Source: Turbatrix aceti (lineage: Eukaryota > Nematoda > Chromadorea > Rhabditida > Panagrolaimidae). From it: 64,000 bases of DNA. Below the pieces are notes generated by a model. It ran no database searches. It saw nothing but the letters and a program-made list of their open reading frames with translations, and was not told where the DNA came from. Within the stretch, counting starts at the first letter, position 1. Every line of letters starts with the position of its first letter. Location of the stretch: contig OZ017768.1 in the NCBI GenBank assembly GCA_963969345.1, forward strand, positions 8,890,718 to 8,954,717, read 5' to 3'. Positions 29,421-48,492 of the stretch are shown here, one piece after another. The translations under genes and the position numbers were made by a program.

Positions 29421-30173
29421 CTAAGCAGGTAGAGATGCCAAATCAAGTGTTCGATCGCACAATTCACACCTGTTGACAGCTCCATAGTAGTTCCCGTGGT
29501 TCACTGCGGTAGAATCTTCGAAAATGTCATTCGTCGAGTTGTAAAAATACGTGCAATTTCCAGGGTGATACAGTCCGGGACAAACCTGATAGGGATCGTA
29601 GACTGCCATCGTGTTGTTGTACCAAGTGTCGCCCTGGACATGCAGGTAAGCTATTTTATCAGTGCCGTTGAATGTCATGTCGATGGCCATTCGAGGAACC
29701 GGATCATTGGCATGGACCACCCGTTGGTTGTGTGGAACGAGCCTTGCGTAGTTTTTAGCAAATTCGGGGTCACCTACAACAATGGATCCAAAACTCGCAG
29801 CATGAATTCGAGAAGTTGTGATTTCAGGATAGTTTAGGCGGATGTAAGCAGCCGCAACCGTCGCCAATGCTCCACCTAACGAGTGCCCGGTGGCAAAAAT
29901 GGTGTAATCCGGGTAGCGCTTGATGGCTCCGTTGAAGACTCTTTGCAGGGTCTGGTTGACGAAGAGGAGCTTGAAGCCATTGACGTAGTAAAAGTTAACT
30001 TTGCCAATGGGAAGTAACGGATCAGAAACAGGTTCCCACAACGAAGAGACGTTAATGATGTATCCAATTTGATGCACGTCGTCCGATCCTTCAAAAGACA
30101 AAATGATAGCCTTGTAATCGTGAGCGACGACGATGGACCCTGTGCAGGGATCCTGGTCAAGATACTCCCCAAT

Positions 30174-30233
30174 TGTGGGAAACACTACCTTGGCCTTCGG
30201 TAATGCTCCCAGTGACCTTGTACCCCGTGAGTC
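30174..30233 (-). repeat. 3' LTR remnant (60 bp)
   Basis: Identical to the terminal 60 bp of the 350-bp LTR at 35902-35961. The match ends at GTGAGTC on the plus strand, after which sequence continues into polyprotein code. The SL1-containing part of this LTR is lost. Confidence 0.93.
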
Positions 30234-33200
30234 CCGTCGACGTCTTGACAACTGCAGCTCGGTTGACTCCGTCCTGGGATGCGATCAGCTGCTGGATGAG
30301 GCCGAGCCTCCAGAGGTGACGAGGACCGTCGTCGCGGATGACTACCGTCTCGCCGACAAGTGGTTCGTACTTATTGCGGATTCGGCCGGAGCGGTGGATC
30401 CACTGGGTGCGTTCCCGGAGATGATTCAGGTATGCCGTCATGAAGAGCTCGGCTGCCTGCGAGGAGTCTTCCTGCTGCTTTCTCCACAGCTGGGACAGCA
30501 CTTCGGGGCCCGGCGCCGCGACGGGAGGTTGAGAGGCCTGCATGCCCGGCAGAATGCGGTCCGTCGCAGGAAAGAAATCACAAGGTCTCAGCGTGACCGT
30601 TGTGTCGTCGTCGAGAGGTACGAGTGGTCGGCAATTGACAGCTGCTTCGATCGTGCCCAGATGATGGTCGATCTCACTCAGATATGGGAGCTTTCTGCCA
30701 AAAATTCGATGCATGCAATTCTTGACGATTCCGATGAGCCGTTCGTAGACTGCGCCTTGCCACGGAGCTCGCTCAATGGTGTGGCTCCACCTGACGCCGT
30801 GGAAGGCCGGATCCTGGGTGACGAATTCGGCGACCTTGCGGAAAGACAGTGCGTTGTCGCTGAGGACCGTCGATGGGAATCCGAATCTGGTTGAGTGACG
30901 GTAGAGAGTCTCGAGTACGTCGGGAGCACTCATCGTCGGCGTTCTCTGCAGTTGGATCGCCCGGGTGGTCAAACAGGTGATGATGAGAACAACCGTCGAC
31001 GTCTTGAGGCCGTCCTTGTCAATGACGCGAAGTGGACCGAAGAAGTCGACGCCGATGTGCGCGTACGGCCTGGTCAGTTCGGTGCGCTTGGACGGTAGCG
31101 GCGGAAACAGCGGCATCTCGTACGGCCCGGCATGCTGCTGGCGGCACCTGGTGCAGGTTTTCAAGATGCTGCGTACCGTGGCCCTGCCTCGTAGAATCCA
31201 GAAGTGCTCTCGGATGGCTGTGAGCGTCGTAGCCGTTCCGCAGTGGGCTAGCTGCTCGTGCACTTGACGTACGTAGAGGGTCGTCAGATGCGAGTGACGC
31301 GGGAGAACAGGGAGTCTTGGACCGTGCCGGATGCGGTCGTTGAAGTGGACGACACCGTCTGGTCCTTTGATGAGGGCATTGTCGCTGGTCGGGATGACGT
31401 CGTAGCGCTGTTGCTCCTGCCGAATGAGGAAGCGCTCTGCCTCGTGCCAAGCCTCGCCGTCCCCCAACACTGGGAATTTTAATTGGATTGTCCCCATTCT
31501 CGTGACCCATCGGCGACTGTTTTGGATTACCATTCTTGTAACCCGAATCAGCCGGCGATAATTACTAAAATTTTCGACCGAAATAAAGGGCTGCGCCTGA
31601 TTTTGCTGCTGCGCGATTGTACAAGCCAGCGTCATTGCGTGCACGATTTTGGGCGGCGCGACGTTGGAAAAAATTTTGGGACACTCGCCCGAACGCAACC
31701 ATGGGGGTCCGTGCCACCACAGTTCGAGCTTACCCAAACTACGCATGCTGGTACCACGTGTCGGAAGATCCGCCGGATTGTCTTCCGAAGCAACGTGACC
31801 GAACGAAAACGCGATCGGCATCGCCAGCAACTTTTTGACACGGTTTAGAACAAAAAGATCGTGCGATGGTTTCTTAACCCAATCCAGTGCGATGGTGCTA
31901 TCAGACCACAGACAGATTTCGCGAAATTTGGGCCCAGTTTGCTCAATCTCAAGAGCCAACTCCGCCGCCATAACAAGCGCCTGCAGCTCCGCTTTTGGAA
32001 TGGTCGTAGACCGCGCTTTGAATACGCTTTTGGACATGATAAGAGCCGGCGGCTCACCGGTGTCAGGTTTGAAGTACGCGGCCGCGGCAACAAATTCACC
32101 AGACGCGTCCGCAAAAACGTGTAACTCGCCGCCCCCCTTAGAAATAGCGTAACGTGGAACCGTGACTTCGCCATTGACCAGTTGCACGACGTCTTCCCAC
32201 GCCTTTGCCAACTCACTACCGAGCGGCACGCTACGCTCGTGACTGAAGATGCCATGCTGGCGCGCAAAACTTTTGAGCAACGCCGTGACTGGAGTAACGA
32301 AACCGATAGGATCAAAAACCGATAAAATTGCGCTGTGCACCTCCTTGGTGTTTTTGCACCGCTTAGCGTCGATAGCGATGTTTGTGCGAAAAACATCCGT
32401 CTTCGCGTCGTAACCTATGCCGAGAATCTTCAAACGCGCTTCGTCAGCCGTTTCCTTGATTCCTTCGAGCAAACTACCCTTGTTGCTAAAGAATTCACGA
32501 AGATGGAACTTGCCGTCCTCGAAATGCAACTGCACTCTACGCCGCCTTTGGTCGAGTAACTCAGGGTCATCGTCCAGAATGAACACGTTATCGACGTACG
32601 TGGTGACCATGACGATCTAGTCCGGATGGCCTCTCATATGGACGTGCAGCGTGATTCCTAGGAGCGCCGGACTACAATTCATGCCAAAAATGAGTTGTTT
32701 GAAACGATAAGCCTGAATATTCCGCCGGGTTGGTGGAAGATTTGGATCGCGCACCCACAAAAACCGTAAAGCGTCCCTGTCTTTTGGACTCACCGAGATC
32801 TGGTGAAACGCTTTTTCAATATCGCATGCCACGAAAAATTTGGCTCCCCGAATTTTGAGCAAAATACTGCGCAGCTTTGGCAATAAGTCCGGCCCTTGGT
32901 GAATCATGTCGTTGAGACAGTTTCCTTCTGGAGTCTTGGCCGCGCAGTTGAAGACGATCCTGACCTTTGTTGTGCTGCTGGACGCCTTTACCACCGGATG
33001 ATGCGGTAGGTAGTGCGTGATTTCGCCGCCTGAGTGCGGAGGTACCTTCTCAATGATGTTTGCGGCTTCTTGATTCTGGAAGATCTCGTGGTACTGCTGA
33101 AGAATGCCCGGGGACTTCTGCATTCGCCCGTGAGACGATCGGAGTTGTCCCGCTGCAGATCCGAAGTTTGGGTGAATCCTCGGATGCTCGCTCTTCCATG

Positions 33201-35385
33201 GAATCTTGACTTCGTACCGGCCGTCAGGAAGTCGAATGGGTTCCTCGAGTTTGACTGGTTGCGCGTCATTGCTCTTGTTGCCGAGATACGCTTGCTCCAG
33301 GATGTCGAGCTCGTTGACCGTACCCGTTGGACGAATGAGACAGAACATGTTGGTCTGAGTCGGGTCGAAGAAATTCGGATGTTCTGGGAGCGTGAACGTG
33401 CCGACCGACGTGTGCTGCGTCAATAACCCGTTCGCGTCCTTCTCGACTACGCCTTTCATGAGCTTGACCGTGTAGTGGACACTGAGAAGCACGTCGACTT
33501 CGACTGCCTTCTTGTAATGCGCGCTCTCCTTCTGAGTGACGATTACTGGACTTCCGGTCACTTCCTTGATCGACAACCCTTGGATGTCGATTTCGCCGTC
33601 GTCGGTGACAACCTTGAAATTTGCCTTCGACGAGTGGAACGAGACTGTTCCGCCTGCCAGTCCGGTGACGACGACTGACTGCGGTTCCTCCGACTTGATA
33701 TTGAGCTTGCGTAGGGCTGCCTTGGAGACGTACGTCATGCTTGATGCGGTATCTAGCATTGCTGTCAGCTGGACGACCTTGCCATTCGCGCCGTTCTTGC
33801 ACCTGATTGTGCCCACGAGGAAACAGTTGGGCTCGCTGCCGGTGGCGCTCTTCACGATGTGGGTCTGCTGCCGGTTGGCATTGCACATAGCTTCGTGATG
33901 CGGTCGCTGGCACTTCTTGCACAGGTAGTTGCAATAGGCCGCCACGTGGTTCTTCTTCAGACACCGGTAACAGAGTCTTTGCTGTTCCATGATCTGGCGA
34001 CGGTTCGCATGGCTAACCACGACTGTGCACTGATCTGGCGGATGCCCTTGCTCGCCGCAGAATGAGCACCTGACGGCTTGATTGTCGCCTTCTTGATTCT
34101 GGATCGGGACTGACGTGAACGGCTTATTGTAGGCTTGGTTATGGGTAAACCCTCGACTGGTACTGGAACTTGGGGGTCTCGACACCTTCGTTTCCTTCTC
34201 TGTCTCTTCTGACTCGGCTAAACCTCTGGCCATGACCAGAACCTTTTCGATGGCCGCCTCGATTGAGTATTGAGCGCCGCCGTGGTTCACGTGCCGTTCG
34301 TACGCCAGTTTGTCGACGATGATCTTGGGCCACTTCGTCTTAACGAGCGCCATCAAGTCGTGCGAATCCTGGTAGGACTTGTCGGCGCGGATGATCATCG
34401 AGACTAAGCTGTTGATACGATACGTAGTCTCTTCGATGGACTCTGCCTTGTCCGTTGCCTGCGGAATTGCCTTGAGTTTCCGCTTCATGCCCTCGACTAG
34501 AAGCTCTGGACGTCCGAATGCCTCTTGCAGCTTCTTCCAGGCTTCCTCGAAGACTTCGCCAATGGTGTCGTATTGGTCGAGGTAGAGAGCCGCTTTGCCT
34601 TTGACCGCTTTCTTCAACGCAGACATGCGCTCAAGATCGGTCCTTGTCTTGTCGTTCGCGTAGCCTTCCTTGAACGCTGAGTAGAACGACAGCCACTTCT
34701 CCGGGGTCCCGTCGAAGTCCGGAACGTGCACTCTCGCTTCCCGTTTGGCGATGACGATCTGGGGTCCCTGGTCTCGATGGGATCGTTGCGAACTGCGTGA
34801 GCTCTCCGGCGATGACGGAAGAACGTTGTCGAACTGCTCCCGGGCCCTCTTGTCGATGTCGATCAGCGAATCGACCGGAGTTGATGTCCGAACCTGCTGC
34901 CTGACTTGCTGAGGCTGGATCGAAAGGTTGCCGAGGCCTACGGGTACCTCCGCCGTAAAATAGTTCGTTGGAGGGACACCGGTGGCCATTTGCGTTTGAT
35001 AGCTGATTCCCGTGGCCATGACAGTATTCTGGCCCATGGCGGGAACGAACTGGTTCTGCCCGATTGCTGGGGGAATGTTCTGCGCCATCGTTGCGTCGAT
35101 AACACCCATGGCGTCGCCATAGAAAACGTCAAATCCTTGGGCTGCTCGGAGAAACGGCCCCTCGTCGACCACGTTCCCCGGATTTTTCTCAATCTTGCCT
35201 ACCAATTCGTCGAGCGCCTCCTGAAGCTCCGTTATCCTATGCCTTATGCGCTGCGCGCGATAGTAGAGCTGAGACGGCGATAGTGGATTTATGCCGTTTG
35301 CGTGCGCGCCAAGTTCCTGAAAGGTGCGCTCGACTTCCGCGATGCGGGCTAGCAACCGCGCGATGCGGTCAGCCCTGTTTACCAT
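30234..35385 (-). pseudogene. BEL/Pao gag-pol polyprotein, one nonsense codon and 3' truncation
   Basis: A single frame from the ATG at 35385 runs through a TAG at 32617-32619 and continues to the deletion junction near 30234. In order: N-terminal coiled segment (1-70), DUF1759-type gag core (about 215-385), two CX2CX4HX4C zinc knuckles (440-453, 472-485), DUF1758-type aspartic protease (LDTAS near 545) and reverse transcriptase (from about 780; CDIEKAFHQI and, after the stop, YVDN). Pao RNase H follows (FADAS, AELQAL, WSDST, ADLPTRG), then integrase with an H2C2 finger and D-D-E residues (GVDFFGP, LSDNA, YERLIG), and the DUF5641 tail (RHLWRLG). The stop sits eleven codons before the catalytic YVDN, so RT is inactive unless the stop is read through. 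Confidence 0.9.
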
Positions 35386-35901
35386 CGTGGCTGAAAAAAA
35401 ACGTAAAAAACTGACCCCGCCTGATGCGCTAGTCCAGAATTCACGTACCGTAATCGCGTCTCACAAGAACACGATGCCTAAAAACTAAAACCGTAACCCT
35501 GCACTATGCGAAGCGCTGTTACCCCAAACTGCGTGTTGATGCCGCCGCTCTCAAGCCTGCGTCTATCGAACTCGCGCCAAATGTACCCCGTGTCTCGTCA
35601 GACCACGGTTACCCAAAAAAAACCAAAACACCCGCGCTTGCTTCACAAAGCCCACGCTTGCTGGCCTAAAAACTCGACGCACAAAAGAAACGCCCCTTTT
35701 TTGGCCCCAATTTGCCTGTCCGATGGACCACGAGATAAAAACAACCCAATCAAAACCCAGAAAACTCACCGGGACGGGGCCTGGTTGTCGTCTTGCTCGC
35801 CTGCTTCCTGGACCGCCGACGGTGTCGCCGCCCTGTTCTGCTCTGCCACGCGTGGGGGGTGCCCGAGAGTATGGATCACTCGGCTCGATTGCACCAAAAA
35901 G
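35386..35901 (-). other. BEL/Pao 5' leader with candidate primer-binding site and splice acceptor
   Basis: Directly after the 5' LTR (sense strand) come five bases and then TGGTGCAATCGAGCCG (35881-35896 complement), a candidate tRNA primer-binding site; I could not name the tRNA. At the other end TTTTTTTTCAG (35391-35401 complement) lies 5 nt before the gag ATG, a strong nematode splice acceptor. Frames annotated in this stretch on either strand are not supported. Confidence 0.6.
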
Positions 35902-36251
35902 TGTGGGAAACACTACCTTGGCCTTCGGTAATGCTCCCAGTGACCTTGTACCCCGTGAGTCTCCGAGAGATAAGAGAGTGTTTATTCGAAGCCTCAAACT
36001 TGGGTAATTAAACCTATTGGTAAACCAATAGCGCGTTACGCGACAAATAAATAATCAACAAATAAATAAAGAATCATGGGGGCAAAATGGGAGACAAATA
36101 TGAGGACACAACCAAAAAGTAGGACGACCAAGAGGCAAGCAGCGAAGTTTCCTAGACTTTCGCTCCGAGAGTCGAAAGCGTGCGCACAGCCGTAACCGAT
36201 CTTTCGCGGCTGGAGAAACAGAACGCGCGCGTTCTCGCAACTTTTGCGACA
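35902..36251 (-). repeat. 5' LTR of the BEL/Pao element (350 bp)
   Basis: Sense-strand ends TG...CA. It contains, in sense order, a GC-rich U3 with the palindrome GAACGCGCGCGTTC, an AT-rich stretch with TTTATTTATTTG, the palindromes CGCGTAACGCG and CTATTGG-TTTA-CCAATAG, the SL1 sequence, AATAAA, then a U5-like tail. It recurs unchanged at 46229-46578. Confidence 0.92.
35993..36014 (-). other. Perfect SL1 spliced-leader sequence inside the LTR
   Basis: On the sense strand of the element this 22-mer is identical to the C. elegans SL1 leader (begins GGTTTAATTACCC, ends TTTGAG). It is followed by GCTTCG, not by the GT donor of an SL RNA gene, so it is not an SL RNA gene. AATAAA follows at 35981-35986. 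Confidence 0.95.
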
Positions 36252-36517
36252 CCAATACCGCATGAAACAGTATCGGTGATCAGCAGCTCGGAATCGTAGA
36301 AACAGCGGTTGAGACAAGTCTTGGCGTCAGTGGCGTTGTCGTAGGGAATCTCGCATAGAGGCCAGTAGAGATACCGGGCGAAGGCATCCGAGTAGTAAAG
36401 TGGCAGGTAACCCCTGAAGTTTTTCTCGTGATTGTCTGTCGGGAGCGGCTGCGTTTCATTGGCAGCCCATGCGACGGTCGCAAGGACAACAAACAGCAAA
36501 CAGGAACGGTGGATCAT

Positions 36518-37154
36518 TCTGGAAATGCTGTAAATCAGGTGTCATCCTCACGACTTTTATATCAAACTCGTTTATTCGTCGGTCAAAGATGTCACTGCTA
36601 TCAATCCCGGAAACTGTCAAAAAATGCTCAAAGAGCAAAAATCGACGCAAAATCAGAACTTAGCTGATGGGTTAAAAAGTAGATCGGTCTCGATATCACA
36701 GGTAAAAAACACGCAGTTGATTGACACAAGAACTTGCTTGTGTGTGATTTTCTGATCAGCTTGGAGCTGCTCGAATTAAATACCGCTGTTTTTCTGTAAA
36801 CTCAGCGTGTTTTATTGGGATCCATTGTTTGTTTGTCGATGAAAACAATGCCACGACCTTTTTTTGTTTTCCGTCGGACAAGAATTCTTCCTTACAAAAT
36901 ACAAACGTTTTGGTTCCGGATATAATCTTCATTTTTTTATTTCACAGAAGTTTCTAGAAAAGTGTAGAACTTCACTTGACCGTGCATTTTGAGATTTGAA
37001 AGAAAACATTCTTCCATGAGAGTTGCTTTCTGTAAGCAGTCGACATGCAACCAAGATTACCCGTTACATTAGTCTGTCATCACATTTTTCGGTCAGAAAC
37101 ATTTATTCATTAACTTATACGCAAGCCCAAATACAGTACCAGGCATTGTACAAA
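36518..37154. other. Lipase 1 promoter and lipase 2 downstream region
   Basis: Holds the TATA and GATA-like block of lipase 1 close to 36518 and otherwise AT-rich sequence. Chance frames at 36428-36667 overlap the promoter. No gene. Confidence 0.5.
36554..36625 (-). promoter_or_regulatory. Lipase 1 core promoter and shared upstream block
   Basis: TATAAAAG lies about 40 bp upstream of the ATG; further up the plus strand reads GTCACTGCTATCAATCCCGG and CTGTCAAAAAATGC. The minus-strand ATTGATAG fits a WGATAR GATA-factor site, 81 bp before the ATG. The block recurs before lipases 3, 4 and 5 at 80-92 bp. Confidence 0.55.
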
Positions 37155-38165
37155 CTAGGCGGGCAACGAAGATAAATCGAGCGTCCGGTTGCACAAAGAG
37201 CAACGATCGACGGCTCCGAAGTAGTTCAAATGAGTTTGAACGTTGCTCCCTGTAAAAACGTCCGACGAGTTGTAGAAATACGTGCAGTTTCCGTAATGAT
37301 AAAGTCCAGGGCAGACGATATACTCAGCAAAGACGGCCATTGTGTTGTTGTACCACGTGTCGCCTTGCACGTGCAGGTACGCGCGGTCATTCGTGCCGTT
37401 GATTAGGACATCGGTGGCAATCCGCGGAGCCGGATCGTCTGCGTGAACCACCCGTTGGTTGTGAGGAACCAGTTTTGAGAAGTTTTCGGCAAATTCAGCG
37501 TCTCCTACAATAAGTGCCCCAAAACTAGCCGCATGAATGCGCGAAGCCGTAATTTTAGGGTAGTTGAGTCGGATGTAAGCAGACGCAATCGTCGAAAACG
37601 CTCCGCCTAATGAGTGCCCGACGACAAAGACGTTGTAATCAGGGTAGCGTTTGATGGCTCCGTTGAAGACTCTTTCCAAGGTTTGGTTGACGAAGAGGAG
37701 TTTGAAGCCGTTGATGTAGTAAAAGTTCACCTTGCCAATGGGAAGTAGAGGATCAGCGATGGGTTCCCATAGGGAAGAAACGTCTATGATGTAGTCAACT
37801 TGATGCGCATCGTCTCCGCCTTCAAATGATATGATGATGGCTTTGTAATCGTGAGCCACGATGATAGATCCGGTGCAGGGGTCAAGGTCAAGATACTCTC
37901 CAATACCGCATGAAACAGTATTGGTGATCAGCAGCTCGGAATCGTAGAAACAGCGGTTGAGACAGGCCGCGGCATCAGTGGTGTTATCGTAGGGGACTTC
38001 ACACAGAGGCCAGTAGAGATACCGGGCGAAGGCATCAGAGTAGTAGAGTGGCAGATATCCTTTAAAGTTTTTTCCATGGTCGTCGGCTGGAAGCGACTGC
38101 GTTTCATTGGCAGCCCATGCGACAGTCGCAAGGATAACAATCAGCAAACAAGAGCGATGAATCAT
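37155..38165 (-). CDS. Secreted class 3 lipase 2
   Basis: Intronless, 336 residues. Signal peptide 1-18 (MIHRSCLLIVILATVAWA); alpha/beta-hydrolase lipase class 3 fold from about 35 to 320. Nucleophile Ser185 in GHSLGG (183-188), Asp244 in HADDPAPR, His312 in THLNYFG near the C-terminus. Conserved cysteines pair up the ectodomain (C55, C68, C72, C86, C97, C285, C294, C322, C325), and there are several N-glycosylation sites. The usual F-R-G of the family's oxyanion strand is F-E-G here (IISFEGGD). A TATA-like TATATAAG lies about 42 bp upstream of the ATG. Acts outside the cell, probably on dietary glycerolipids; substrate is inferred. Confidence 0.92.
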   Translation of the reverse strand: MIHRSCLLIVILATVAWAANETQSLPADDHGKNFKGYLPLYYSDAFARYLYWPLCEVPYDNTTDAAACLNRCFYDSELLITNTVSCGIGEYLDLDPCTGSIIVAHDYKAIIISFEGGDDAHQVDYIIDVSSLWEPIADPLLPIGKVNFYYINGFKLLFVNQTLERVFNGAIKRYPDYNVFVVGHSLGGAFSTIASAYIRLNYPKITASRIHAASFGALIVGDAEFAENFSKLVPHNQRVVHADDPAPRIATDVLINGTNDRAYLHVQGDTWYNNTMAVFAEYIVCPGLYHYGNCTYFYNSSDVFTGSNVQTHLNYFGAVDRCSLCNRTLDLSSLPA

Positions 38166-39307
38166 GTTGAAGCTGTAGATGTTGGGATTCTATGCTTGCA
38201 TGTCAGCTTATATATTGTCTGTCAACTCATCGAACAAGAAAGTCATTGCTATTAATGGTAAAACTGTCAAAAACTGCTGACATAATGAAAAAATAAATAA
38301 AATCAGATTGATCAAAAGTCAAATTAACCTTTTGAGAATACTGCGTTCAGGCTCGCAAAAAATATGAACTTTTGGTCAAGTATTGTAGTAATCTCGCAGA
38401 TTGAACTTTGATCTTAAACTTTATACATATGTGAATTGGAATGATTGTTTTTATTTTGCAAACAATAAGATTCCTAGTGCATCCGACGCTTTCTTGAACG
38501 TCGCCTCACAACCAATTCAAGATCAATTGACTCTTTACTCAAAAATTTGCCGTGCTGCGTATTTCAGAGATGTTTTATAAAAATTACGTTCTGTGATTTT
38601 CGGATTTTGGACCTATTTGATTTGTACGCAATTTTACATTTCGAGTTATTATACATACTTCTGTGAACCCGATCACTTTTTAGTAATATTTATTCTAAAG
38701 TTGAAAAACTGATGAGGTTATCAGCCGTTTCTTAAAAAACCAATTTCGTTCAACATCAATTTTTCGTAGTTTCTTATCACGTAACGACGCATGACGACGC
38801 GCGATAACGTACATAAACCGGGAGACAAACAAAATGGTAAACAAACGAATACACAAAACGGGAAAAATACAATAACCTGATAAAATGATGAACGCAAATT
38901 AGATACACAGTTGCATCAATTCAGTAAAACAAAGAATCGTTACAAGAAGATTCAAAACGAACTCTAGCAGACGTGTTTATTTGATGACCTTTTTATTTAA
39001 TACAAAAATTACATTTTTAATAATACGTGTTTGCTTCAGCTCGCCGAAGTTGATCAAATTTGTGACACATTTTTGATAAAAACATCTCCGATGTCGAATC
39101 TCCATAATGATTAGTTTATTTGCCTGATGTGAGTAAAATTTTGCCCATTTTTATGGTATAGCAAGCCAACATTTTTGCAACAACATGTGAATGCTTCTTT
39201 TTTGTATTTTTTTGCCTTTGATCAAAATAGTACTACAAACACAACCATGTATTTATTTTTTTAAATAATTTTACGTTACCACAACTACACATCAAACGTC
39301 CTAAGAA
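38166..39307. other. Intergenic region between lipases 2 and 3
   Basis: AT-rich spacer. It holds the lipase 2 promoter and is the stretch in which the two 10-kb copies differ most. No gene. Confidence 0.6.
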
Positions 39308-40297
39308 TTAAGCCGGCAACAATGCTAAATCAAGCGTCCGGTTGCACAAAGAACACCGTTCAATGGCACCGAAGTAGTTCAAATGGGCCTTTAAAGTTTG
39401 TGATGTCAATAACTGACTCGAATTGTATGTGTACGTGCAATATCCATAATGATACAATCCGGGGCAAACTTGGTATTTTGCAAAAACTTCCATTTCATTG
39501 TTATACCACGTGTCACCCTGTACGTGCAGGTACGCGCGATCACTTGTGCCGTTGATCAGCATATCGGTAGCAATTCGAGGGGCAAAGTCATCTGCATGAA
39601 CAACCCGCTGGTTGTGGGGAACAAGTTGTGAAAAGTTTGCAGCAAATTCGGCGTCTCCTACAATAAGTGCACCAAAAGTTGCCGCATGTAGGCGCGAAAC
39701 TGTGAATTCCTGGTAGTTGAGTCGGATGTTAGCAGACGCAATCGTCGCAAACGCTCCACCTAATGAGTGTCCGACAACAAGGACGTTGTAGGTGGGGTAA
39801 CCGGCGACGGCTGCGTTAAAAGCACGCTGTAGAGTTTGGTTGACAAAAAGTAATTTGAAGCCATTTATATAGTAGAAATTCATTTTGCCAATAGGAAGTG
39901 CAGGATCTGCAACGGGTTCCCACAGTGAAGAAACTTGCATGATGTACCCAGTTTGGTGCGTGGTATCCCCGCCTTCAAAGGATAAGATGATAACATTGTA
40001 ATCGTGAGCCACGATAACCGATCCGGTGCATGGATCCTGGTCCAGGTACTGTCCAATACCACAAGAAACGGTTGAAGTATTCACAAGCTGGGCATCGTCA
40101 AAGCATTGATTCAAACAGGCTTCAGCTTCAGTGTCATTGTCGTAGGGAATCTCGCAAAGAGGCCAGTAGAGGTACCGAGCAAAAGCATCAGAGTAGTAGA
40201 CAGGTAAAGAACCTCGAAAGGTTTGAGACTGCGTTTCATAAATAAAACAGATAGCAGTCACAATAACTACAAGTAGGAATCGGGAGCGGTAGATCAT
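39308..40297 (-). CDS. Secreted class 3 lipase 3
   Basis: Intronless, 329 residues. Signal peptide MIYRSRFLLVVIVTAICFIYETQS; then GSLPVYYSDAFARYLYWPLCEIPYDN, the block that defines this local family. Nucleophile elbow GHSLGG, Asp in HADDFAPR and His in AHLNYFG are kept. The oxyanion strand reads LSFEGGD. About two-thirds identical by eye to lipase 2. Shares the upstream GATA-like block (TTATCAAT at 40379-40386). Identical to the copy at 49617-50606. Confidence 0.92.
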   Translation of the reverse strand: MIYRSRFLLVVIVTAICFIYETQSQTFRGSLPVYYSDAFARYLYWPLCEIPYDNDTEAEACLNQCFDDAQLVNTSTVSCGIGQYLDQDPCTGSVIVAHDYNVIILSFEGGDTTHQTGYIMQVSSLWEPVADPALPIGKMNFYYINGFKLLFVNQTLQRAFNAAVAGYPTYNVLVVGHSLGGAFATIASANIRLNYQEFTVSRLHAATFGALIVGDAEFAANFSQLVPHNQRVVHADDFAPRIATDMLINGTSDRAYLHVQGDTWYNNEMEVFAKYQVCPGLYHYGYCTYTYNSSQLLTSQTLKAHLNYFGAIERCSLCNRTLDLALLPA

Positions 40298-40847
40298 GCC
40301 GAAAATTTTGGAGTTTAGATGTGGTCTTTTATTCGTATTTAAATACCAACCGTTTGTCGTACAAAAATGGTAAAGACGTTATCAATACATAAAAAATGCA
40401 AACATAAACAAAAAATTAATGTAAAGTAGATAAGTAAAACGAATCTTCAAAGAATATCGCGTTATCTTTCGCAAAAACGTGATTTTTTTAACAAACGGTT
40501 CATGCATGCTAAGCAGTTTTATTTTTACTTACTTTAGTCTTTATACGCATGACACAATTGGAGGCGTGACTAAAACCAGTAGGTTTTGCACGATATTGCA
40601 GTCTTCTACCGTACACTTGTAGAAAACGCCTCATTTATTAATTCAAAGCATATTTTGTACATGTTCGATTGATTTGTTAAGCAAGCCCTGTATCTACCTT
40701 TTTGATTTCTCATGTTTGTTTTTCCAACTTGATGGCTTATTTTCGTATGCCTTTGTCATTAAAATACAATAAACAAATGTATTTATTATTTTTGTTTTAC
40801 GTTATCACAAAGGTAATATTTTAATACGTTTAAAAACGTCCTAGGAA
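40298..40847. other. Intergenic region between lipases 3 and 4
   Basis: Lipase 3 promoter (TTTAAATA near 40337, TTATCAAT at 40379) and the 3' flank of lipase 4. No gene. Confidence 0.5.
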
Positions 40848-41840
40848 TTAAGCAGGCAACGTTGCTAAATTAAGCGTCCAGTTGCACAAAGAACACCGAT
40901 TTTCGGCATCAAAGTAGTTGTAATGACTTGCAACATTTTCCGGTGCAGTGATGTCACTAAAGTTGTATGCATACGTGCAATCTCCGTAATGATAAAGTCC
41001 GGGGCAGACTTCGTAATCGGCAAAAACTTCCATCGTGTTATTGTACCACGTGTCGCCTTGTACATGCAGATATGCGCTGTCGTTAGTGCCGTAGATTAGT
41101 AAATTGGTAGCAATTCGAGGAATAGGATCGTCTGCATGAACGATCCGCTGATTGTGAGGAACAAGTTGTGAAAAGTTTTCGGCAAATTCGGTATCTCCTA
41201 CAATAAGTGATCCAAACGTTGCCACATGAATTTGTGATGCCACGACTTGAGGGTAGTTAAGTCGGATGTAAGCGGATGCTATTGTTGATAACGCTCCGCC
41301 TAAGGAATCTCCGACAACAAGGATATTGTAAGCAGGGTAAGCCTTAATGACTGTCGCGAAGGATTTCTGTAGAGTCTGGTTGACAAAGAGTCGCTTGAAT
41401 GCATTCATGTAGTAATAATTGATTTTGCCGATAGGAAGTATAGGATCCGCAACGGGTTCCGTCAACGCGGATACATCTAATATGTATTCTAATTGATGCG
41501 GGGTACTCCATCCTTTAAATGATAAAATGATAACTTTGTAATCGGCAGACACGATGATAGACCCTGTGCAGGTATCCCGGTTCAGATACTCTCCAATACC
41601 ACAAAAAACTGTTGAAGTATTCACCAGAAAAGAGTAAAAAAAACATTGATTCAAACATGCTTGAGCTTCTGTGACATTGTCGTACGGAATCTCCGTTAAA
41701 GGCCAATAGAGGTACCTCGCAAAAGCATCGGAGTAGTATTTGGGTAAAGAGCCTCCAATGGTTAGTGACGACTGCGTTTCATTAACAACACATATGACAG
41801 TAACAAAAACTACAAGAAGTAGTTTTGAACGATTTGTCAT
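40848..41840 (-). CDS. Secreted class 3 lipase 4, variant nucleophile elbow
   Basis: Intronless, 330 residues from MTNRSKLLLVVFVTVICVVNETQSS. An ATG ten codons upstream (41870) lies only a few bases from the TATATAAG box at 41877-41884, so it would precede the start of transcription; 41840 is preferred and matches the paralogues' signal peptides. The nucleophile elbow is GDSLGG instead of GHSLGG; Ser, the Asp of HADDPIPR and the His of SHYNYFD remain. The oxyanion strand is SFKGW. These changes suggest altered substrate or weaker activity, but the triad is complete. Confidence 0.88.
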   Translation of the reverse strand: MTNRSKLLLVVFVTVICVVNETQSSLTIGGSLPKYYSDAFARYLYWPLTEIPYDNVTEAQACLNQCFFYSFLVNTSTVFCGIGEYLNRDTCTGSIIVSADYKVIILSFKGWSTPHQLEYILDVSALTEPVADPILPIGKINYYYMNAFKRLFVNQTLQKSFATVIKAYPAYNILVVGDSLGGALSTIASAYIRLNYPQVVASQIHVATFGSLIVGDTEFAENFSQLVPHNQRIVHADDPIPRIATNLLIYGTNDSAYLHVQGDTWYNNTMEVFADYEVCPGLYHYGDCTYAYNFSDITAPENVASHYNYFDAENRCSLCNWTLNLATLPA

Positions 41841-42598
41841 GTTGGAAATGTTGGAGTTATAGGCTTTCATCTGAACTTATATACATATATTTATATAACA
41901 CGTGTCCGCACATGGTACAAAAATGTCACGTTTATCAATTCAAAAAAACTGCTTACACAAACAAAAAATAATAAAAAGTCAAAAGTCAAACCAATCTTTG
42001 AAGAACATCGTGTTATCTCTTGCAAAAACGTAACAAGCGTTGCATGTATGCTAAGCAGTGTTATTTTTATTTATTTTTGATAAGCGTAAAACAGATTAGC
42101 GCGAAACTAAAATAAATACATACTACTTACATATACTTAAATTTTAGTGTCACATTTAAAAAAAAATATGGACTCATTATGGAATGCCGATGGTATCGAC
42201 GACGTTCTTGGAGGTGGCAAGCTCGCATGATGCGGTCCGCTCGCTTATAAACGGAAGCGCTCTCTGGCTTATACTCTGAAGCGTAATCGTGAGCTTTTCA
42301 TGACAGTAATTTTGTCAGCGATAAAATAGTGAAAATTGTTGATCAACTGATCAAGAAAAAACTGTACATACATACTGTAGTATTTCTCTATGCCTCTCGC
42401 GATAGATTACACAAACAAAAAATAATAATACAAAAGAGGATATGTATGTGTAAATAAACAGTAGAGCGAAGTTTATTATATGCAATTCACAGACATATTG
42501 CTTGTGGTCAGTGTTTTTTAAATAAACAATTATTAAAAAAAATTCTCATCACGCAAACACAAGAAAAGGTAACATTAACTTTAAAAAATGTTTACAAA
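41841..42598. other. Intergenic region between lipases 4 and 5
   Basis: Lipase 4 promoter (TATATAAG, TTATCAAT at 41932-41939). A more GC-rich patch at 42168-42310 holds a 20-codon frame MDSLWNADGIDDVLGGGKLA closed by TGA, after which the frame stays open for over 30 more codons; it may be an exon remnant. No supportable gene. Confidence 0.45.
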
Positions 42599-43609
42599 CT
42601 AGGCAGGCAACGAAGCCAAATCAAGCGTCCGGTTGCACAAAGTGCATCGGTCAACGGCATCAAAGTAATTCAAATGAGGTGTAAAAGAGCTTGCGTTACC
42701 CCAATTAAAGACGACTTCCATCGAGTTGTAGAAATAAGTGCAATTTCCATAATGATAAAGTCCGGGACAGACGTTATACTCAGAAAAGACGGTCATTGTG
42801 TTGTTGTACCACGTGTCGCCTTGGACGTGCAGATAGGCGCGGTCGTTCGTGCCGTTGATTAGCACATCGGTGGCCAGCCGCGGAGCTGGATCGTCTGCGT
42901 GAACAACCCGCTGGTTATGGGGAACAAGTTTTGCGAAGTTTTTGGCAAATTCAGCGTCTCCTACAATAAGTGCACCAAAACTTGCCGCATGAATGCGCGA
43001 AGCCGTAATTTTAGGGTAGTTGAGTCGGATGTAAGCAGACGCAATCGTCGAAAACGCTCCTCCTAATGAGTGCCCAACGACAAAAATGGTGTAATCAGGG
43101 TAGCGATTGATGGCTCCGTTGAAGACTCTTTCCAGGGTTTGGTTGACGAAAAGGAGTTTGAAGCCGTTGATGTAGTAGAAATTGACCTTGCCGATAGGAA
43201 GTAGAGGATCAGCGATGGGTTCCCACAACGCAGAGATATTTACGATGTAGGGGACTTGATGCGCGCCGTCTCCACCTTCAAATGATATGATGATGGCTTT
43301 GTAATCGTGAGCCACTATGATAGATCCGGTGCAGGGGTCAAGGTCAAGATACTCTCCAATTCCACAAGAAACAGTATCGGTGATCAGAAGTTCGGAATCG
43401 TAGAAACAGCGGTTGAGACAGGCCGCGGCATCAGTGGCGTTGTCGTAAGGAATCTCGCACAGAGGCCAGTAAAGATAACGTGCGAAGGCATCAGAGTAGT
43501 AGAGGGGCAAGTAACCTTTGAAGTTTTTCCTGTGGTCGTCTGTCGTTTCATTGGCAGCCCAGGCCGCACCCGCAAGGACAACAAGCAACAAACAAGAGCG
43601 ATGGAACAT
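42599..43609 (-). CDS. Secreted class 3 lipase 5
   Basis: Intronless, 336 residues starting MFHRSCLLLVVLAGAAWA; the signal peptide is followed directly by NETTDDHRKNFKGYLPLYYSDAF. GHSLGG, HADDPAPR and PHLNYFD carry the triad. Highly similar to lipase 2, with a short insertion near the C-terminus (EVVFNWGNASS). The open frame continues upstream through the run of N into retrotransposon code; that fusion is an artefact of the gap. Identical to the copy at 52908-53918. Confidence 0.92.
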   Translation of the reverse strand: MFHRSCLLLVVLAGAAWAANETTDDHRKNFKGYLPLYYSDAFARYLYWPLCEIPYDNATDAAACLNRCFYDSELLITDTVSCGIGEYLDLDPCTGSIIVAHDYKAIIISFEGGDGAHQVPYIVNISALWEPIADPLLPIGKVNFYYINGFKLLFVNQTLERVFNGAINRYPDYTIFVVGHSLGGAFSTIASAYIRLNYPKITASRIHAASFGALIVGDAEFAKNFAKLVPHNQRVVHADDPAPRLATDVLINGTNDRAYLHVQGDTWYNNTMTVFSEYNVCPGLYHYGNCTYFYNSMEVVFNWGNASSFTPHLNYFDAVDRCTLCNRTLDLASLPA

Positions 43610-43663
43610 TTGGAAAGTGCTGTAATTCAGTGTTCTCACCTGAACTTTTATATCAAGCTTGTT

Positions 43664-43863
43664 NNNNNNNNNNNNNNNNNNNNNNNNNNNNNNNNNNNNN
43701 NNNNNNNNNNNNNNNNNNNNNNNNNNNNNNNNNNNNNNNNNNNNNNNNNNNNNNNNNNNNNNNNNNNNNNNNNNNNNNNNNNNNNNNNNNNNNNNNNNNN
43801 NNNNNNNNNNNNNNNNNNNNNNNNNNNNNNNNNNNNNNNNNNNNNNNNNNNNNNNNNNNNNNN
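43664..43863. other. Assembly gap, 200 N
   Basis: Exactly 200 N, joining the promoter of lipase 5 to the middle of a BEL/Pao polyprotein frame. A join of unknown size between two contigs with the same content. Confidence 0.99.
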
Positions 43864-45712
43864 TGACGATTACTGGACTTCCGGTCACTTCCTTGATCGA
43901 CAACCCTTGGATGTCGATTTCGCCGTCGTCGGTGACAACCTTGAAATTTGCCTTCGACGAGTGGAACGAGACTGTTCCGCCTGCCAGTCCGGTGACGACG
44001 ACTGACTGCGGTTCCTCCGACTTGATATTGAGCTTGCGTAGGGCTGCCTTGGAGACGTACGTCATGCTTGATGCGGTATCTAGCATTGCTGTCAGCTGGA
44101 CGACCTTGCCATTCGCGCCGTTCTTGCACCTGATTGTGCCCACGAGGAAACAGTTGGGCTCGCTGCCGGTGGCGCTCTTCACGATGTGGGTCTGCTGCCG
44201 GTTGGCATTGCACATAGCTTCGTGATGCGGTCGCTGGCACTTCTTGCACAGGTAGTTGCAATAGGCCGCCACGTGGTTCTTCTTCAGACACCGGTAACAG
44301 AGTCTTTGCTGTTCCATGATCTGGCGACGGTTCGCATGGCTAACCACGACTGTGCACTGATCTGGCGGATGCCCTTGCTCGCCGCAGAATGAGCACCTGA
44401 CGGCTTGATTGTCGCCTTCTTGATTCTGGATCGGGACTGACGTGAACGGCTTCTTGTAGGCTTGGTTATGGGTAAACCCTCGACTGGTACTGGAACTTGG
44501 GGGTCTCGACACCTTCGTTTCCTTCTCTGTCTCTTCTGACTCGGCTAAACCTCTGGCCATGACCAGAACCTTTTCGATGGCCGCCTCGATTGAGTATTGA
44601 GCGCCGCCGTGGTTCACGTGCCGTTCGTACGCCAGTTTGTCGACGATGATCTTGGGCCACTTCGTCTTAACGAGCGCCATCAAGTCGTGCGAATCCTGGT
44701 AGGACTTGTCGGCGCGGATGATCATCGAGACTAAGCTGTTGATACGATACGTAGTCTCTTCGATGGACTCTGCCTTGTCCGTTGCCTGCGGAATTGCCTT
44801 GAGTTTCCGCTTCATGCCCTCGACTAGAAGCTCTGGACGTCCGAATGCCTCTTGCAGCTTCTTCCAGGCTTCCTCGAAGACTTCGCCAATGGTGTCGTAT
44901 TGGTCGAGGTAGAGAGCCGCTTTGCCTTTGACCGCTTTCTTCAACGCAGACATGCGCTCAAGATCGGTCCTTGTCTTGTCGTTCGCGTAGCCTTCCTTGA
45001 ACGCTGAGTAGAACGACAGCCACTTCTCCGGGGTCCCGTCGAAGTCCGGAACGTGCACTCTCGCTTCCCGTTTGGCGATGACGATCTGGGGTCCCTGGTC
45101 TCGATGGGATCGTTGCGAACTGCGTGAGCTCTCCGGCGATGACGGAAGAACGTTGTCGAACTGCTCCCGGGCCCTCTTGTCGATGTCGATCAGCGAATCG
45201 ACCGGAGTTGATGTCCGAACCTGCTGCCTGACTTGCTGAGGCTGGATCGAAAGGTTGCCGAGGCCTACGGGTACCTCCGCCGTAAAATAGTTCGTTGGAG
45301 GGACACCGGTGGCCATTTGCGTTTGATAGCTGATTCCCGTGGCCATGACAGTATTCTGGCCCATGGCGGGAACGAACTGGTTCTGCCCGATTGCTGGGGG
45401 AATGTTCTGCGCCATCGTTGCGTCGATAACACCCATGGCGTCGCCATAGAAAACGTCAAATCCTTGGGCTGCTCGGAGAAACGGCCCCTCGTCGACCACG
45501 TTCCCCGGATTTTTCTCAATCTTGCCTACCAATTCGTCGAGCGCCTCCTGAAGCTCCGTGATCCTATGCCTTATGCGCTGCGCGCGATAGTAGAGCTGAG
45601 ACGGCGATAGTGGATTTATGCCGTTTGCGTGCGCGCCAAGTTCCTGAAAGGTGCGCTCGACTTCCGCGATGCGGGCTAGCAACCGCGCGATGCGGTCAGC
45701 CCTGTTTACCAT
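43864..45712 (-). pseudogene. BEL/Pao gag-protease fragment
   Basis: The frame starts at the ATG at 45712 and contains the coiled N-terminus, gag core, two zinc knuckles and the start of the aspartic protease; it is cut by the gap. One of the two base changes relative to copy 1 alters a residue (Asn to Lys near residue 420); the other is synonymous. Confidence 0.88.
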
Positions 45713-46228
45713 CGTGGCTGAAAAAAAACGTAAAAAACTGACCCCGCCTGATGCGCTAGTCCAGAATTCACGTACCGTAATCGCGTCTCACAAGAACACG
45801 ATGCCTAAAAACTAAAACCGTAACCCTGCACTATGCGAAGCGCTGTTACCCCAAACTGCGTGTTGATGCCGCCGCTCTCAAGCCTGCGTCTATCGAACTC
45901 GCGCCAAATGTACCCCGTGTCTCGTCAGACCACGGTTACCCAAAAAAAACCAAAACACCCGCGCTTGCTTCACAAAGCCCACGCTTGCTGGCCTAAAAAC
46001 TCGACGCACAAAAGAAACGCCCCTTTTTTGGCCCCAATTTGCCTGTCCGATGGACCACGAGATAAAAACAACCCAATCAAAACCCAGAAAACTCACCGGG
46101 ACGGGGCCTGGTTGTCGTCTTGCTCGCCTGCTTCCTGGACCGCCGACGGTGTCGCCGCCCTGTTCTGCTCTGCCACGCGTGGGGGGTGCCCGAGAGTATG
46201 GATCACTCGGCTCGATTGCACCAAAAAG

Positions 46229-46578
46229 TGTGGGAAACACTACCTTGGCCTTCGGTAATGCTCCCAGTGACCTTGTACCCCGTGAGTCTCCGAGAGATAA
46301 GAGAGTGTTTATTCGAAGCCTCAAACTTGGGTAATTAAACCTATTGGTAAACCAATAGCGCGTTACGCGACAAATAAATAATCAACAAATAAATAAAGAA
46401 TCATGGGGGCAAAATGGGAGACAAATATGAGGACACAACCAAAAAGTAGGACGACCAAGAGGCAAGCAGCGAAGTTTCCTAGACTTTCGCTCCGAGAGTC
46501 GAAAGCGTGCGCACAGCCGTAACCGATCTTTCGCGGCTGGAGAAACAGAACGCGCGCGTTCTCGCAACTTTTGCGACA
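46229..46578 (-). repeat. BEL/Pao 5' LTR, second copy
   Basis: Same 350 bp as 35902-36251 with the palindromes, SL1 and AATAAA. Confidence 0.92.
46320..46341 (-). other. SL1 sequence in the LTR, second copy
   Basis: Identical to 35993-36014. Because the two copies may be the same locus assembled twice, this is not independent evidence. Confidence 0.93.
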
Positions 46579-46844
46579 CCAATACCGCATGAAACAGTAT
46601 CGGTGATCAGCAGCTCGGAATCGTAGAAACAGCGGTTGAGACAAGTCTTGGCGTCAGTGGCGTTGTCGTAGGGAATCTCGCATAGAGGCCAGTAGAGATA
46701 CCGGGCGAAGGCATCCGAGTAGTAAAGTGGCAGGTAACCCCTGAAGTTTTTCTCGTGATTGTCTGTCGGGAGCGGCTGCGTTTCATTGGCAGCCCATGCG
46801 ACGGTCGCAAGGACAACAAACAGCAAACAGGAACGGTGGATCAT
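46579..46844 (-). pseudogene. Lipase 1, 5' fragment, second copy
   Basis: Identical to 36252-36517: signal peptide through VSCGIG, then the retrotransposon. The 3' part of this copy is not in the assembly. Confidence 0.88.
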
Positions 46845-47481
46845 TCTGGAAATGCTGTAAATCAGGTGTCATCCTCACGACTTTTATATCAAACTCGTTT
46901 ATTCGTCGGTCAAAGATGTCACTGCTATCAATCCCGGAAACTGTCAAAAAATGCTCAAAGAGCAAAAATCGACGCAAAATCAGAACTTAGCTGATGGGTT
47001 AAAAAGTAGATCGGTCTCGATATCACAGGTAAAAAACACGCAGTTGATTGACACAAGAACTTGCTTGTGTGTGATTTTCTGATCAGCTTGGAGCTGCTCG
47101 AATTAAATACCGCTGTTTTTCTGTAAACTCAGCGTGTTTTATTGGGATCCATTGTTTGTTTGTCGATGAAAACAATGCCACGACCTTTTTTTGTTTTCCG
47201 TCGGACAAGAATTCTTCCTTACAAAATACAAACGTTTTGGTTCCGGATATAATCTTCATTTTTTTATTTCACAGAAGTTTCTAGAAAAGTGTAGAACTTC
47301 ACTTGACCGTGCATTTTGAGATTTGAAAGAAAACATTCTTCCATGAGAGTTGCTTTCTGTAAGCAGTCGACATGCAACCAAGATTACCCGTTACATTAGT
47401 CTGTCATCACATTTTTCGGTCAGAAACATTTATTCATTAACTTATACGCAAGCCCAAATACAGTACCAGGCATTGTACAAA
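46845..47481. other. Lipase 1 promoter region, second copy
   Basis: Repeats 36518-37154 including the TATA box and GATA-like block (46925-46932). No gene. Confidence 0.5.
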
Positions 47482-48492
47482 CTAGGCGGGCAACGAAGAT
47501 AAATCGAGCGTCCGGTTGCACAAAGAGCAACGATCGACGGCTCCGAAGTAGTTCAAATGAGTTTGAACGTTGCTCCCTGTAAAAACGTCCGACGAGTTGT
47601 AGAAATACGTGCAGTTTCCGTAATGATAAAGTCCAGGGCAGACGATATACTCAGCAAAGACGGCCATTGTGTTGTTGTACCACGTGTCGCCTTGCACGTG
47701 CAGGTACGCGCGGTCATTCGTGCCGTTGATTAGGACATCGGTGGCAATCCGCGGAGCCGGATCGTCTGCGTGAACCACCCGTTGGTTGTGAGGAACCAGT
47801 TTTGAGAAGTTTTCGGCAAATTCAGCGTCTCCTACAATAAGTGCCCCAAAACTAGCCGCATGAATGCGCGAAGCCGTAATTTTAGGGTAGTTGAGTCGGA
47901 TGTAAGCAGACGCAATCGTCGAAAACGCTCCGCCTAATGAGTGCCCGACGACAAAGACGTTGTAATCAGGGTAGCGTTTGATGGCTCCGTTGAAGACTCT
48001 TTCCAAGGTTTGGTTGACGAAGAGGAGTTTGAAGCCGTTGATGTAGTAAAAGTTCACCTTGCCAATGGGAAGTAGAGGATCAGCGATGGGTTCCCATAGG
48101 GAAGAAACGTCTATGATGTAGTCAACTTGATGCGCATCGTCTCCGCCTTCAAATGATATGATGATGGCTTTGTAATCGTGAGCCACGATGATAGATCCGG
48201 TGCAGGGGTCAAGGTCAAGATACTCTCCAATACCGCATGAAACAGTATTGGTGATCAGCAGCTCGGAATCGTAGAAACAGCGGTTGAGACAGGCCGCGGC
48301 ATCAGTGGTGTTATCGTAGGGGACTTCACACAGAGGCCAGTAGAGATACCGGGCGAAGGCATCAGAGTAGTAGAGTGGCAGATATCCTTTAAAGTTTTTT
48401 CCATGGTCGTCGGCTGGAAGCGACTGCGTTTCATTGGCAGCCCATGCGACAGTCGCAAGGATAACAATCAGCAAACAAGAGCGATGAATCAT
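47482..48492 (-). CDS. Secreted class 3 lipase 2, second copy
   Basis: The encoded 336-residue protein is identical to that of 37155-38165: same signal peptide, GHSLGG, HADDPAPR and THLNYFG. If the 10-kb repeat is an assembly duplicate this is the same gene. Confidence 0.9.
   Translation of the reverse strand: MIHRSCLLIVILATVAWAANETQSLPADDHGKNFKGYLPLYYSDAFARYLYWPLCEVPYDNTTDAAACLNRCFYDSELLITNTVSCGIGEYLDLDPCTGSIIVAHDYKAIIISFEGGDDAHQVDYIIDVSSLWEPIADPLLPIGKVNFYYINGFKLLFVNQTLERVFNGAIKRYPDYNVFVVGHSLGGAFSTIASAYIRLNYPKITASRIHAASFGALIVGDAEFAENFSKLVPHNQRVVHADDPAPRIATDVLINGTNDRAYLHVQGDTWYNNTMAVFAEYIVCPGLYHYGNCTYFYNSSDVFTGSNVQTHLNYFGAVDRCSLCNRTLDLSSLPA

Follow-up and report, generated by a model that had tools for sequence, protein, structure and literature searches.

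A BEL/Pao element with SL1 in its LTR

The window, i.e. the whole stretch of 64,000 nt of Turbatrix aceti DNA that was analysed, carries on its minus strand a BEL/Pao retrotransposon (copy 1) and the remnant of a second copy (copy 2). Their features are as follows.

35902..36251, minus: 5' LTR of copy 1, a member of family 4, 350 bp, TGTCGC...CCCACA (350/350 identity to other LTRs; ends and 5-bp target-site duplications seen in other copies)
36015..36251, minus: U3, 237 nt (family 4 LTR comparison)
35993..36014, minus: leader slot, holding SL1 in copy 1 (other copies of the family have other leaders)
35981..35986, minus: AATAAA poly(A) signal, 6 nt past the slot (read from the sequence)
35902..35992, minus: rest of R and U5, 91 nt (family 4 LTR comparison)
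35879..35896, minus: putative primer-binding site, TGGTGCAATCG... (TGGTGC directly after the 5' LTR)
32617..35460, minus: open frame with DUF1759, aspartyl protease and the start of reverse transcriptase (Pfam)
30157..32616, minus: open frame with Pao peptidase A17, integrase zinc-binding domain and DUF5641 (Pfam; PF05380 genome search)
30174..30233, minus: 3' LTR remnant, last 60 bp (LTR positions 291-350), the remainder, slot included, being lost (LTR and duplication comparison)
46229..46578, minus: LTR of copy 2, from the tandem duplication (LTR and duplication comparison)
46320..46341, minus: leader slot of copy 2, holding SL1 (exact match)
42599..45787, minus: remnant of copy 2 (5' part), a DUF1759 and protease frame continuing into a class-3 lipase (Pfam)

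The exact SL1 (22/22) at 35993-36014 has the same orientation as the element, its sense strand here being the minus strand. The second exact SL1 of the window, at 46320-46341 on the same strand, stems from a tandem duplication of about 10 kb (33537-43663 and 43864-53972, 99.6% identity). In 100 shuffles, no SL1 match with up to three mismatches arose. The SL1 of the window is followed by GCTTCGAATAAA, with no donor site. The domains found on the same strand are those of BEL/Pao (PF05380, 1.5e-21; DUF1759, 3.5e-8; DUF5641, 6.2e-8), in the Pfam order protease, reverse transcriptase, integrase; the RVT_1 match is partial (851-939; 25 bits against a curated cut-off of 29.6) and the integrase is matched by its zinc-binding domains only. 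Nine LTRs in the genome, including both LTRs of the window, are identical over 350/350 positions. The original prediction, which had described a full SL1 match on the sense strand of a BEL/Pao LTR, made of the leader alone and too long to be fortuitous, is borne out in these respects, and the chance reading was dropped.

The family also has the dimensions reported for BEL/Pao, i.e. LTRs of 0.2-1.2 kb and elements of 4.2-10 kb (PMC8742986): among the 11 two-LTR elements, the distance between the 350-bp LTRs is 6.46-6.73 kb in 10 and 1.8 kb in the other one. Target-site duplications of 5 bp flank 10 of these 11 elements, the remaining one lying at a contig end, where they are unreadable. The primer-binding site of Belpaoviridae corresponds to tRNA-Arg or tRNA-Gly (PMC8742986); the TGGTGC of family 4 was compared by eye with the tRNA-Gly of the window alone. 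The 5' LTR is followed by this TGGTGC in families 1, 2, 4 and 5, and likewise in two BEL families that served as controls (see below).

Other features of the window deserve mention. Between 29421 and 54032 there is a repeat in nine copies, tandemly duplicated along with the BEL remnant and identified by Pfam as class-3 lipase in the four frames scanned. Segments 3030-4912 and 58553-60501, about 54 kb apart, are large inverted repeats; they contain nested foldback arms and are 93-99% complementary. A 5S rRNA gene is present at 19326-19444, with no SL1 beside it, which is consistent with PMC8022731.

Leader slots in the genome and their contents

The genome (59.9 Mb) contains 145 exact copies of SL1, against none for the reversed control. 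Ninety-nine of them have GTA next (by subtraction; none has GT plus another base). Of these 99, 27 were read: all have an SL-gene-like flank, with an Sm-type site about 50 nt on in 26 and absent in one. The other 46 exact copies are not followed by GT (21 + 25), and every one of them sits in LTR-type sequence by its flanks, which is a warning for the annotation of SL RNA genes. They divide into family 4 (17), family 2 with its U3 variants (19), family 1 (7), family 3 (2) and one chimera. A cluster at C4:728148-753676 comprises 18 exact SL1 copies spaced by about 1.5 kb, one of which (L127) was read. In viral and in bacterial/archaeal contig collections SL1 had 0 matches each.

Pairs of LTRs were demonstrated for families 1, 2 and 4; the count for family 3 is of exact SL1 matches alone. 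Family 1 is BEL/Pao (Pfam DUF1759 and DUF5641) and family 2, of which types 2a and 2b were read, is Ty3/gypsy by Pfam. The U3 of family 3 is like that of family 2 (74% over a 118-nt stretch) and has TATAAA and CCTTTTATAT ahead of the slot. In families 1 to 4, SL1 is at the U3/R boundary and a poly(A) signal comes right after it. Family 5 was encountered as three slots (L094, L096 and L104) among matches to host-leader patterns, one of them holding a leader also present in gene L093; it is probably a BEL family, since two of the three loci are 2-4 kb from PF05380 matches and its LTR ends resemble those of family 4. A leader slot is found, then, in BEL/Pao families 1 and 4, in the probable BEL family 5 and in Ty3/gypsy family 2. 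SL-less BEL families speak against a slot in all LTR elements of this genome, a reading that was rejected: with up to four mismatches allowed, none of 14 leaders was present in eight pieces around four other BEL copies from different PF05380 score groups. Two of the four copies show whole LTRs, one a 103-bp repeat at the piece edge and one no repeat, which makes two firm control families.

A few oddities were noted in these families. In the family 5 LTR (L132, L133, L134), R' (the part of R after the leader) starts with GTAAAC straight after the leader, the same letters as after SL1 in the SL1 RNA genes; this may be a splice donor or a remnant of captured SL RNA. On C2, a family 5 BEL copy borders on a satellite whose period is about 155-165 bp (L135, 1149-3501, element sense). 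Two family 2 Ty3/gypsy frames match the Monjiviricetes fusion glycoprotein PF24664 (L136, residues 201-301, E 2.8e-8; L138, residues 723-823, E 1.6e-8), which in L138 follows gag-type domains and in L136 precedes the protease, a strange position for an envelope-like domain. Finally, a family 2 LTR (L035, about 1400-1522) has extra sequence just upstream of its slot, which ends in an inverted copy of the leader 3' end (CTCAAACTTGA, then the leader).

The search for family 4 LTRs returned 42 rows, of which 35 were read for the slot, the other seven not spanning it whole. We retained 26 of the 35, those with 0-1 differences from the reference copy in U3 (237 nt) and 0-1 in R-U5 (91 nt), and excluded nine as truncated, diverged or decayed (L049 and L063, with SL1; L079, with the TTTTATACC leader; L080-L085, with decayed or diverged slots). 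The 26 near-identical LTRs hold seven leaders of 21-24 nt, SL1 in 15 and six others in 11, distributed as follows.

SL1: 15
GGTTTAATAACCC..: 3
GGTTTAATTACCCAGA..: 2
GGTATAAATTACCTAAG..: 2
GGTTTTGTACC..: 2
GGTTTTATACC..: 1
GGTTTTTACCTGATC..: 1

Whole leaders are swapped with exact ends, and edits amount to 44/572 in the slot versus 19/8528 in the flanks (Fisher 5e-39, only a guide because the LTR rows are mostly paired and hence not independent). A conventional LTR inherits its R from the element; here the first 21-24 nt of the presumed R vary among near-identical copies, which rules out that SL1 is fixed in family 4. The original prediction had named copies lacking SL1 as evidence against itself. 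Such copies do occur (11 of the 26), and what they hold instead is other leaders, those of host genes in six cases. The TTTTATACC leader is also present in older diverged family 4 copies, exactly in L079 and with one change in L082. Among ten family 1 slots read, seven contain SL1, two GGTTTGATTACCC.. (L089 and L090) and one GGTTTAATAACCC... In family 2, SL1 fills 19 of 21 slots, so swapping there is rare or unseen.

By pattern searches, four of the six non-SL1 leaders of family 4 are exact leaders of host gene-like places with GTA next, and it is these four that six of the 11 non-SL1 LTRs carry. The first search gave 13 places, all read (10 gene-like, three family 5 slots); the second gave 14 rows, i.e. 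two C11 LTRs, one family 1 LTR (L091) and 11 gene-like places, eight of them read. In all, 20 host-leader places plus L131 were read. The GGTTTTATACCTTTGTTTTTGAG leader occurs at three gene-like places (L095, L102, L103), the GGTTTTTACCTGATCTATTTCAAG leader at two (L098, L099) and the GGTTTAATTACCCAGATTTGAG leader at five read of six found (L105-L108 and L131, L106 being incomplete); the GGTTTTGTACCTTTTTTTGAG leader has one probable gene, L100, with an imperfect Sm site and no Rfam match. At E 0.1, Rfam matched 10 of the 14 gene loci submitted, five as SL2 RNA (L088, L098, L099, L102, L103) and five as SL1 RNA (L101, L105, L107, L109, L111); only L088, a canonical SL2 gene whose leader is that of Oscheius tipulae, was above the gathering score. 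SL2 RNA is thus the Rfam assignment of two of the three read genes of the TTTTATACC leader and of both genes of the TTTTTACCTGATC leader, and SL1 RNA that of both submitted genes of the ..CCCAGA.. leader. L093, L095, L097 and L100 were without match at this threshold, as were the six LTR stretches. Run on the genome, the Rfam SL2 model retrieved one gene among 48 scored of 9794 candidates.

For two family 4 leaders, GGTTTAATAACCC.. and GGTATAAATTACC.. (in full GGTTTAATAACCCAAGTTTGAG and GGTATAAATTACCTAAGTTTGAG; 5 of the 26 LTRs), no host gene appeared under the patterns used. As GGTTTAATAACCCAAGTTTGAG recurs in the old family 1 LTR L091 and GGTATAAATTACCTAAGTTTGAG, one letter changed, in the old family 4 LTR L084, we take both to be leaders whose genes were missed or lost. 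More minor host leaders (e.g. GGTTTAATTACCTAAGTTTGAG, GGTTTAATTACCCAAATTTGAG and GGTTTTATCACCTTGCCAATTTCAAG) were seen at L092, L093, L097, L101, L109, L110 and L111, and the host seems to own a wide set of leaders.

The leader is the same in both LTRs for nine of the 11 two-LTR elements of family 4 (SL1 in five, others in four) and different for two. At C6:8209187-8216011, the TTTTATACC leader is in the 5' LTR and the ..AATAACCC.. leader in the 3' LTR, with the GGTAT duplication on both sides; at C2:2950894-2957970, SL1 is in the 5' LTR and the SL2-type TTTTTACCTGATC leader in the 3' LTR, between AGGAC duplications. Standard reverse transcription of a single RNA yields identical LTRs. Two leaders in one insertion therefore point to two RNA templates or to later exchange between copies. 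The two LTRs of C2:2950894-2957970 also differ at U3 position 195, and the C11 element, with one leader in both of its LTRs, has differences between them at U3 positions 171 and 195, which argues that copy-to-copy exchange also moves leaders. In family 2, the R-U5 is nearly constant (91-94% to 2a) behind the U3 types 2a, 2b and 2c. The 2b U3 matches that of 2a in patches; 2c has no match to 2a beyond the slot and R-U5, so its break falls at the slot. These U3 differences, like the locus L034 described next, point to a leader serving in strand transfer.

One locus, L034, associates an element end with a host gene. It consists of an LTR-like U3, SL1 and CCCAAAATGGCGGCTAACGG..., is intronless and codes for 132 residues of a WHEP-domain prolyl-tRNA synthetase. 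Its junction is U3-SL1-CCCAAAATGGCGG... where the host gene reads TTTTCAG|CCCAAAATGGCGG. That gene (C5:634867-635311) has TTTTCAG directly ahead of CCCAAAATGG and an intron within the copied stretch; because of this intron and of the TTTTCAG at the junction, the copy looks like an SL1-trans-spliced, cis-spliced mRNA. The locus ends in an inverted U3 piece and, by eye, GATAT flanks the whole on both sides, so it probably entered as one unit. Set against the host gene, L034 carries its leader precisely where, at the trans-splice acceptor, the RNA-derived 5' end begins; for the LTRs such a comparison is possible among element copies only. At this locus, what appears to be the end of an element meets a trans-spliced mRNA of the host at SL1, the outcome to be expected of a leader in strand transfer.

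Possible origin of the slot contents

From these data we consider it probable that the SL1 of the window is the present content of a refillable spliced-leader slot located at the U3/R junction. The way in which the slot is refilled would, in our opinion with good likelihood, be the following: a leader is spliced in trans onto the element RNA where the old leader ends, and on reverse transcription this new leader becomes part of the LTR, so that the 5' end is host-supplied and re-drawn. Pol II would start upstream in U3 and make an RNA with an AG-poor, U-rich outron as its 5' part. The host spliceosome would then join one of the host's leaders, in most cases SL1 but at times an SL2-type or minor one, onto the AG that ends the encoded leader (TTTGAG| or TTTCAAG|), the new leader replacing the old. 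The resulting RNA would start with leader-R'-U5 and end with U3-old leader-R'-poly(A); reverse transcriptase would copy the new 5' leader, strand transfer would proceed via R' and the GGT start shared by the leaders, and the new leader would then be written into the LTRs. We infer these RNA events from the slot itself, from the varied leaders in near-identical LTRs, from the identity of SL1 and four others with host leaders, from the insertions with two leaders and from the L034 junction. One of the two explanations in the original prediction, the copying of a trans-spliced 5' end into the LTR by reverse transcription, is in this way strongly supported, and the process is apparently recurrent.

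Replacement would be seamless because the old leader would provide the acceptor with its own end. A point against this is that TTTGAG, as an acceptor, is weaker than the TTTTCAG of nematodes. In L086 and L087 (family 2) and in L025 (family 3) the order is leader-TTTGAG-R', i.e. there is an extra TTTGAG, which is expected if the acceptor for the new leader was the AG inside SL1 (CCCAAG|TTTGAG); alternatively it may be a simple 6-bp duplication.

Six of the seven U3 types have a long AG-free stretch before the slot: 137 nt in family 4 (shuffle p 0.002), 173 nt in 2a (0.001), 131 nt in 2b (0.02), 191 nt in 2c (0.003), 84 nt in family 3 (0.05) and 68 nt in family 5 (0.02). The exception is family 1 (10 nt, 0.70), where a further AG is found 10 nt upstream. 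In the window, the final 137 nt of U3 (36015-36151) are without AG, and the terminal A forms an AG with the first G of the slot. The two SL-less BEL control families are AG-free over 47 nt (shuffle p 0.056) and 55 nt (0.043) ahead of AATAAA, so that a stretch is remarkable only when long. Families 2a and 3 have TATAAA 206 nt and 180 nt upstream of the slot, respectively, and the expected start therefore leaves an outron; in 2a, the AG-free stretch starts about where transcription should. No TATAAA was found in the U3 of families 2b, 4 and 5 (by eye for family 5). Family 1, with a TATATA only 51 nt upstream of the slot, counts against the mechanism; in both SL-less BEL families, a TATATAT is no more than about 80 nt away from AATAAA (by eye). 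Also unfavourable, besides the prevalence of SL1 in the family 2 slots, is the last base of U3, an A in six of the seven U3 types (families 1, 2a, 2c, 3, 4 and L132 of family 5), since splicing at the AG that it forms with the first G of the leader would retain the old leader behind the new one; no doubled leader occurs among the slots read. This A could be a start-site letter, an old acceptor or a matter of shared ancestry.

A terminal A of this kind is initiator-like, which is what would be anticipated if, as the original prediction proposed besides capture, transcription started at the first G of the encoded SL1 (or at the A before it) and the sequence were kept to imitate a trans-spliced host mRNA. 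The position of SL1 at the U3/R boundary with the poly(A) signal right after it in families 1-4, its being intact in 15 of the 26 young family 4 LTRs and an AT-rich stretch about 30 nt upstream in family 5 (by eye) go in the same direction. We nevertheless regard such a start as unlikely: near-identical LTRs exchange seven leaders as whole units, TATAAA is far upstream in families 2a and 3, and TTTGAG remnants exist. The first two of these facts led us to reject a start at the slot as a general rule, and of the two explanations originally put forward it is this one that is disfavoured. Mimicry may be a benefit of a captured leader. It is also quite improbable that the element RNA is not trans-spliced at all, reverse transcriptase jumping instead from R' to the 5' end of host trans-spliced mRNAs, or of SL RNA, via TTTGAG homology. 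Such a jump would account for L034, where an LTR-like U3 is joined to a host SL1 mRNA at SL1, and would exploit the TTTGAG common to most leaders; yet the leader ending in TTTCAAG (L078) has exact boundaries while sharing only AG with the old junction, a doubled TTTGAG is not predicted, and the AG-free upstream stretch is left without a role.

Two explanations at the DNA level fare worse. The SL sequence reportedly lies within the promoter of an Ascaris SL RNA gene, and the location of the slot just downstream of U3, together with an SL1 that is often intact, could suggest that the leader is kept as a promoter element; we find this very unlikely, as SL2-type leaders of other sequence replace SL1 in near-identical LTRs and no counterpart of the upstream element that SL RNA genes have is visible by eye in the LTRs. 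As for gene conversion of the slot by SL RNA genes, potential donors abound (about 100 SL1 gene-like places in the genome), but the leader boundaries are exact, without flanking SL-gene sequence in the slots read, and on these grounds we rejected it. In addition, SL2-type donors share with SL1 little beyond the GGT start and AG end, and slots are present in unrelated LTR superfamilies; conversion thus seems extremely unlikely.

Returning to trans-splicing followed by reverse transcription, a wider reading, to which we give about an even chance, is that these elements form a class of LTR retrotransposons, across BEL/Pao and Ty3/gypsy, whose repeat is partly a host property, the leader being drawn from the host pool and kept in the LTR. 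As a 5' end found on many host mRNAs and in several element families alike, it would be a common strand-transfer sequence for exchanging U3 promoters and picking up host mRNAs. The slots would then be a germline record of leader use and the two-leader insertions the product of two RNAs in one particle.

Comparison with known systems and significance

LTR retroelements are taught as having an identical, self-encoded R at both RNA ends. The present sequences suggest that elements pick up a host leader while copying themselves: the 5' end appears to be host-supplied by trans-splicing and inherited, and the element to tolerate or exploit a process that would otherwise destroy R homology. Cap-snatching RNA viruses, too, acquire the 5' end of their RNA from the host, but without inheritance of the host piece, whereas here it is written into the integrated copy.

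No description of a leader slot in an LTR was met with among titles and abstract starts of open-access PubMed Central papers, most subscription papers lying outside this scope. What comes nearest, in the parts of these papers that were available, is a remark on flatworms (PMC12582326) and the relics of dinoflagellates (PMC12014239). The flatworm text speaks of leader fragments adjoining LTR and LINE elements (PMC12582326); it differs in that its available part concerns partial leaders and one interpretive sentence, without LTR position, leader swapping or mixed LTRs. The dinoflagellate retrogenes (DinoRL), as described in PMC12014239, are alike in that a trans-spliced leader is reverse-transcribed into the genome and in that the next leader can be spliced to a point within the previous one, of which a shortened relic then remains; the extra TTTGAG of L086, L087 and L025 would arise in the same way. 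They are unlike the present case in being host retrogenes, whereas here the leader is part of an LTR, mostly without relic, of several types and in a replicating element.

Two nematode systems are closer in kind. Cer1 of C. elegans, a Ty3/gypsy LTR element, has a spliced 2.4-kb mRNA found with and without SL1, according to the available part of PMC3315495; the slot, in contrast, implies a leader on the RNA that serves as reverse-transcription template. Belpaoviridae such as Ascaris Tas are alike in gene content and LTR size, and perhaps in the type of primer site (PMC8742986 and PMC3118150). The short profile PMC8742986 differs in mentioning no spliced leader, and the main text of PMC3118150 has 0 occurrences of words beginning with splic- and leader.

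If the proposed mechanism is true, the slots would constitute a DNA-level record of the leaders that a germline uses and would naturally mark the pairing of RNAs in reverse transcription; they would also open a route for trans-spliced host mRNAs into the genome under an LTR promoter.
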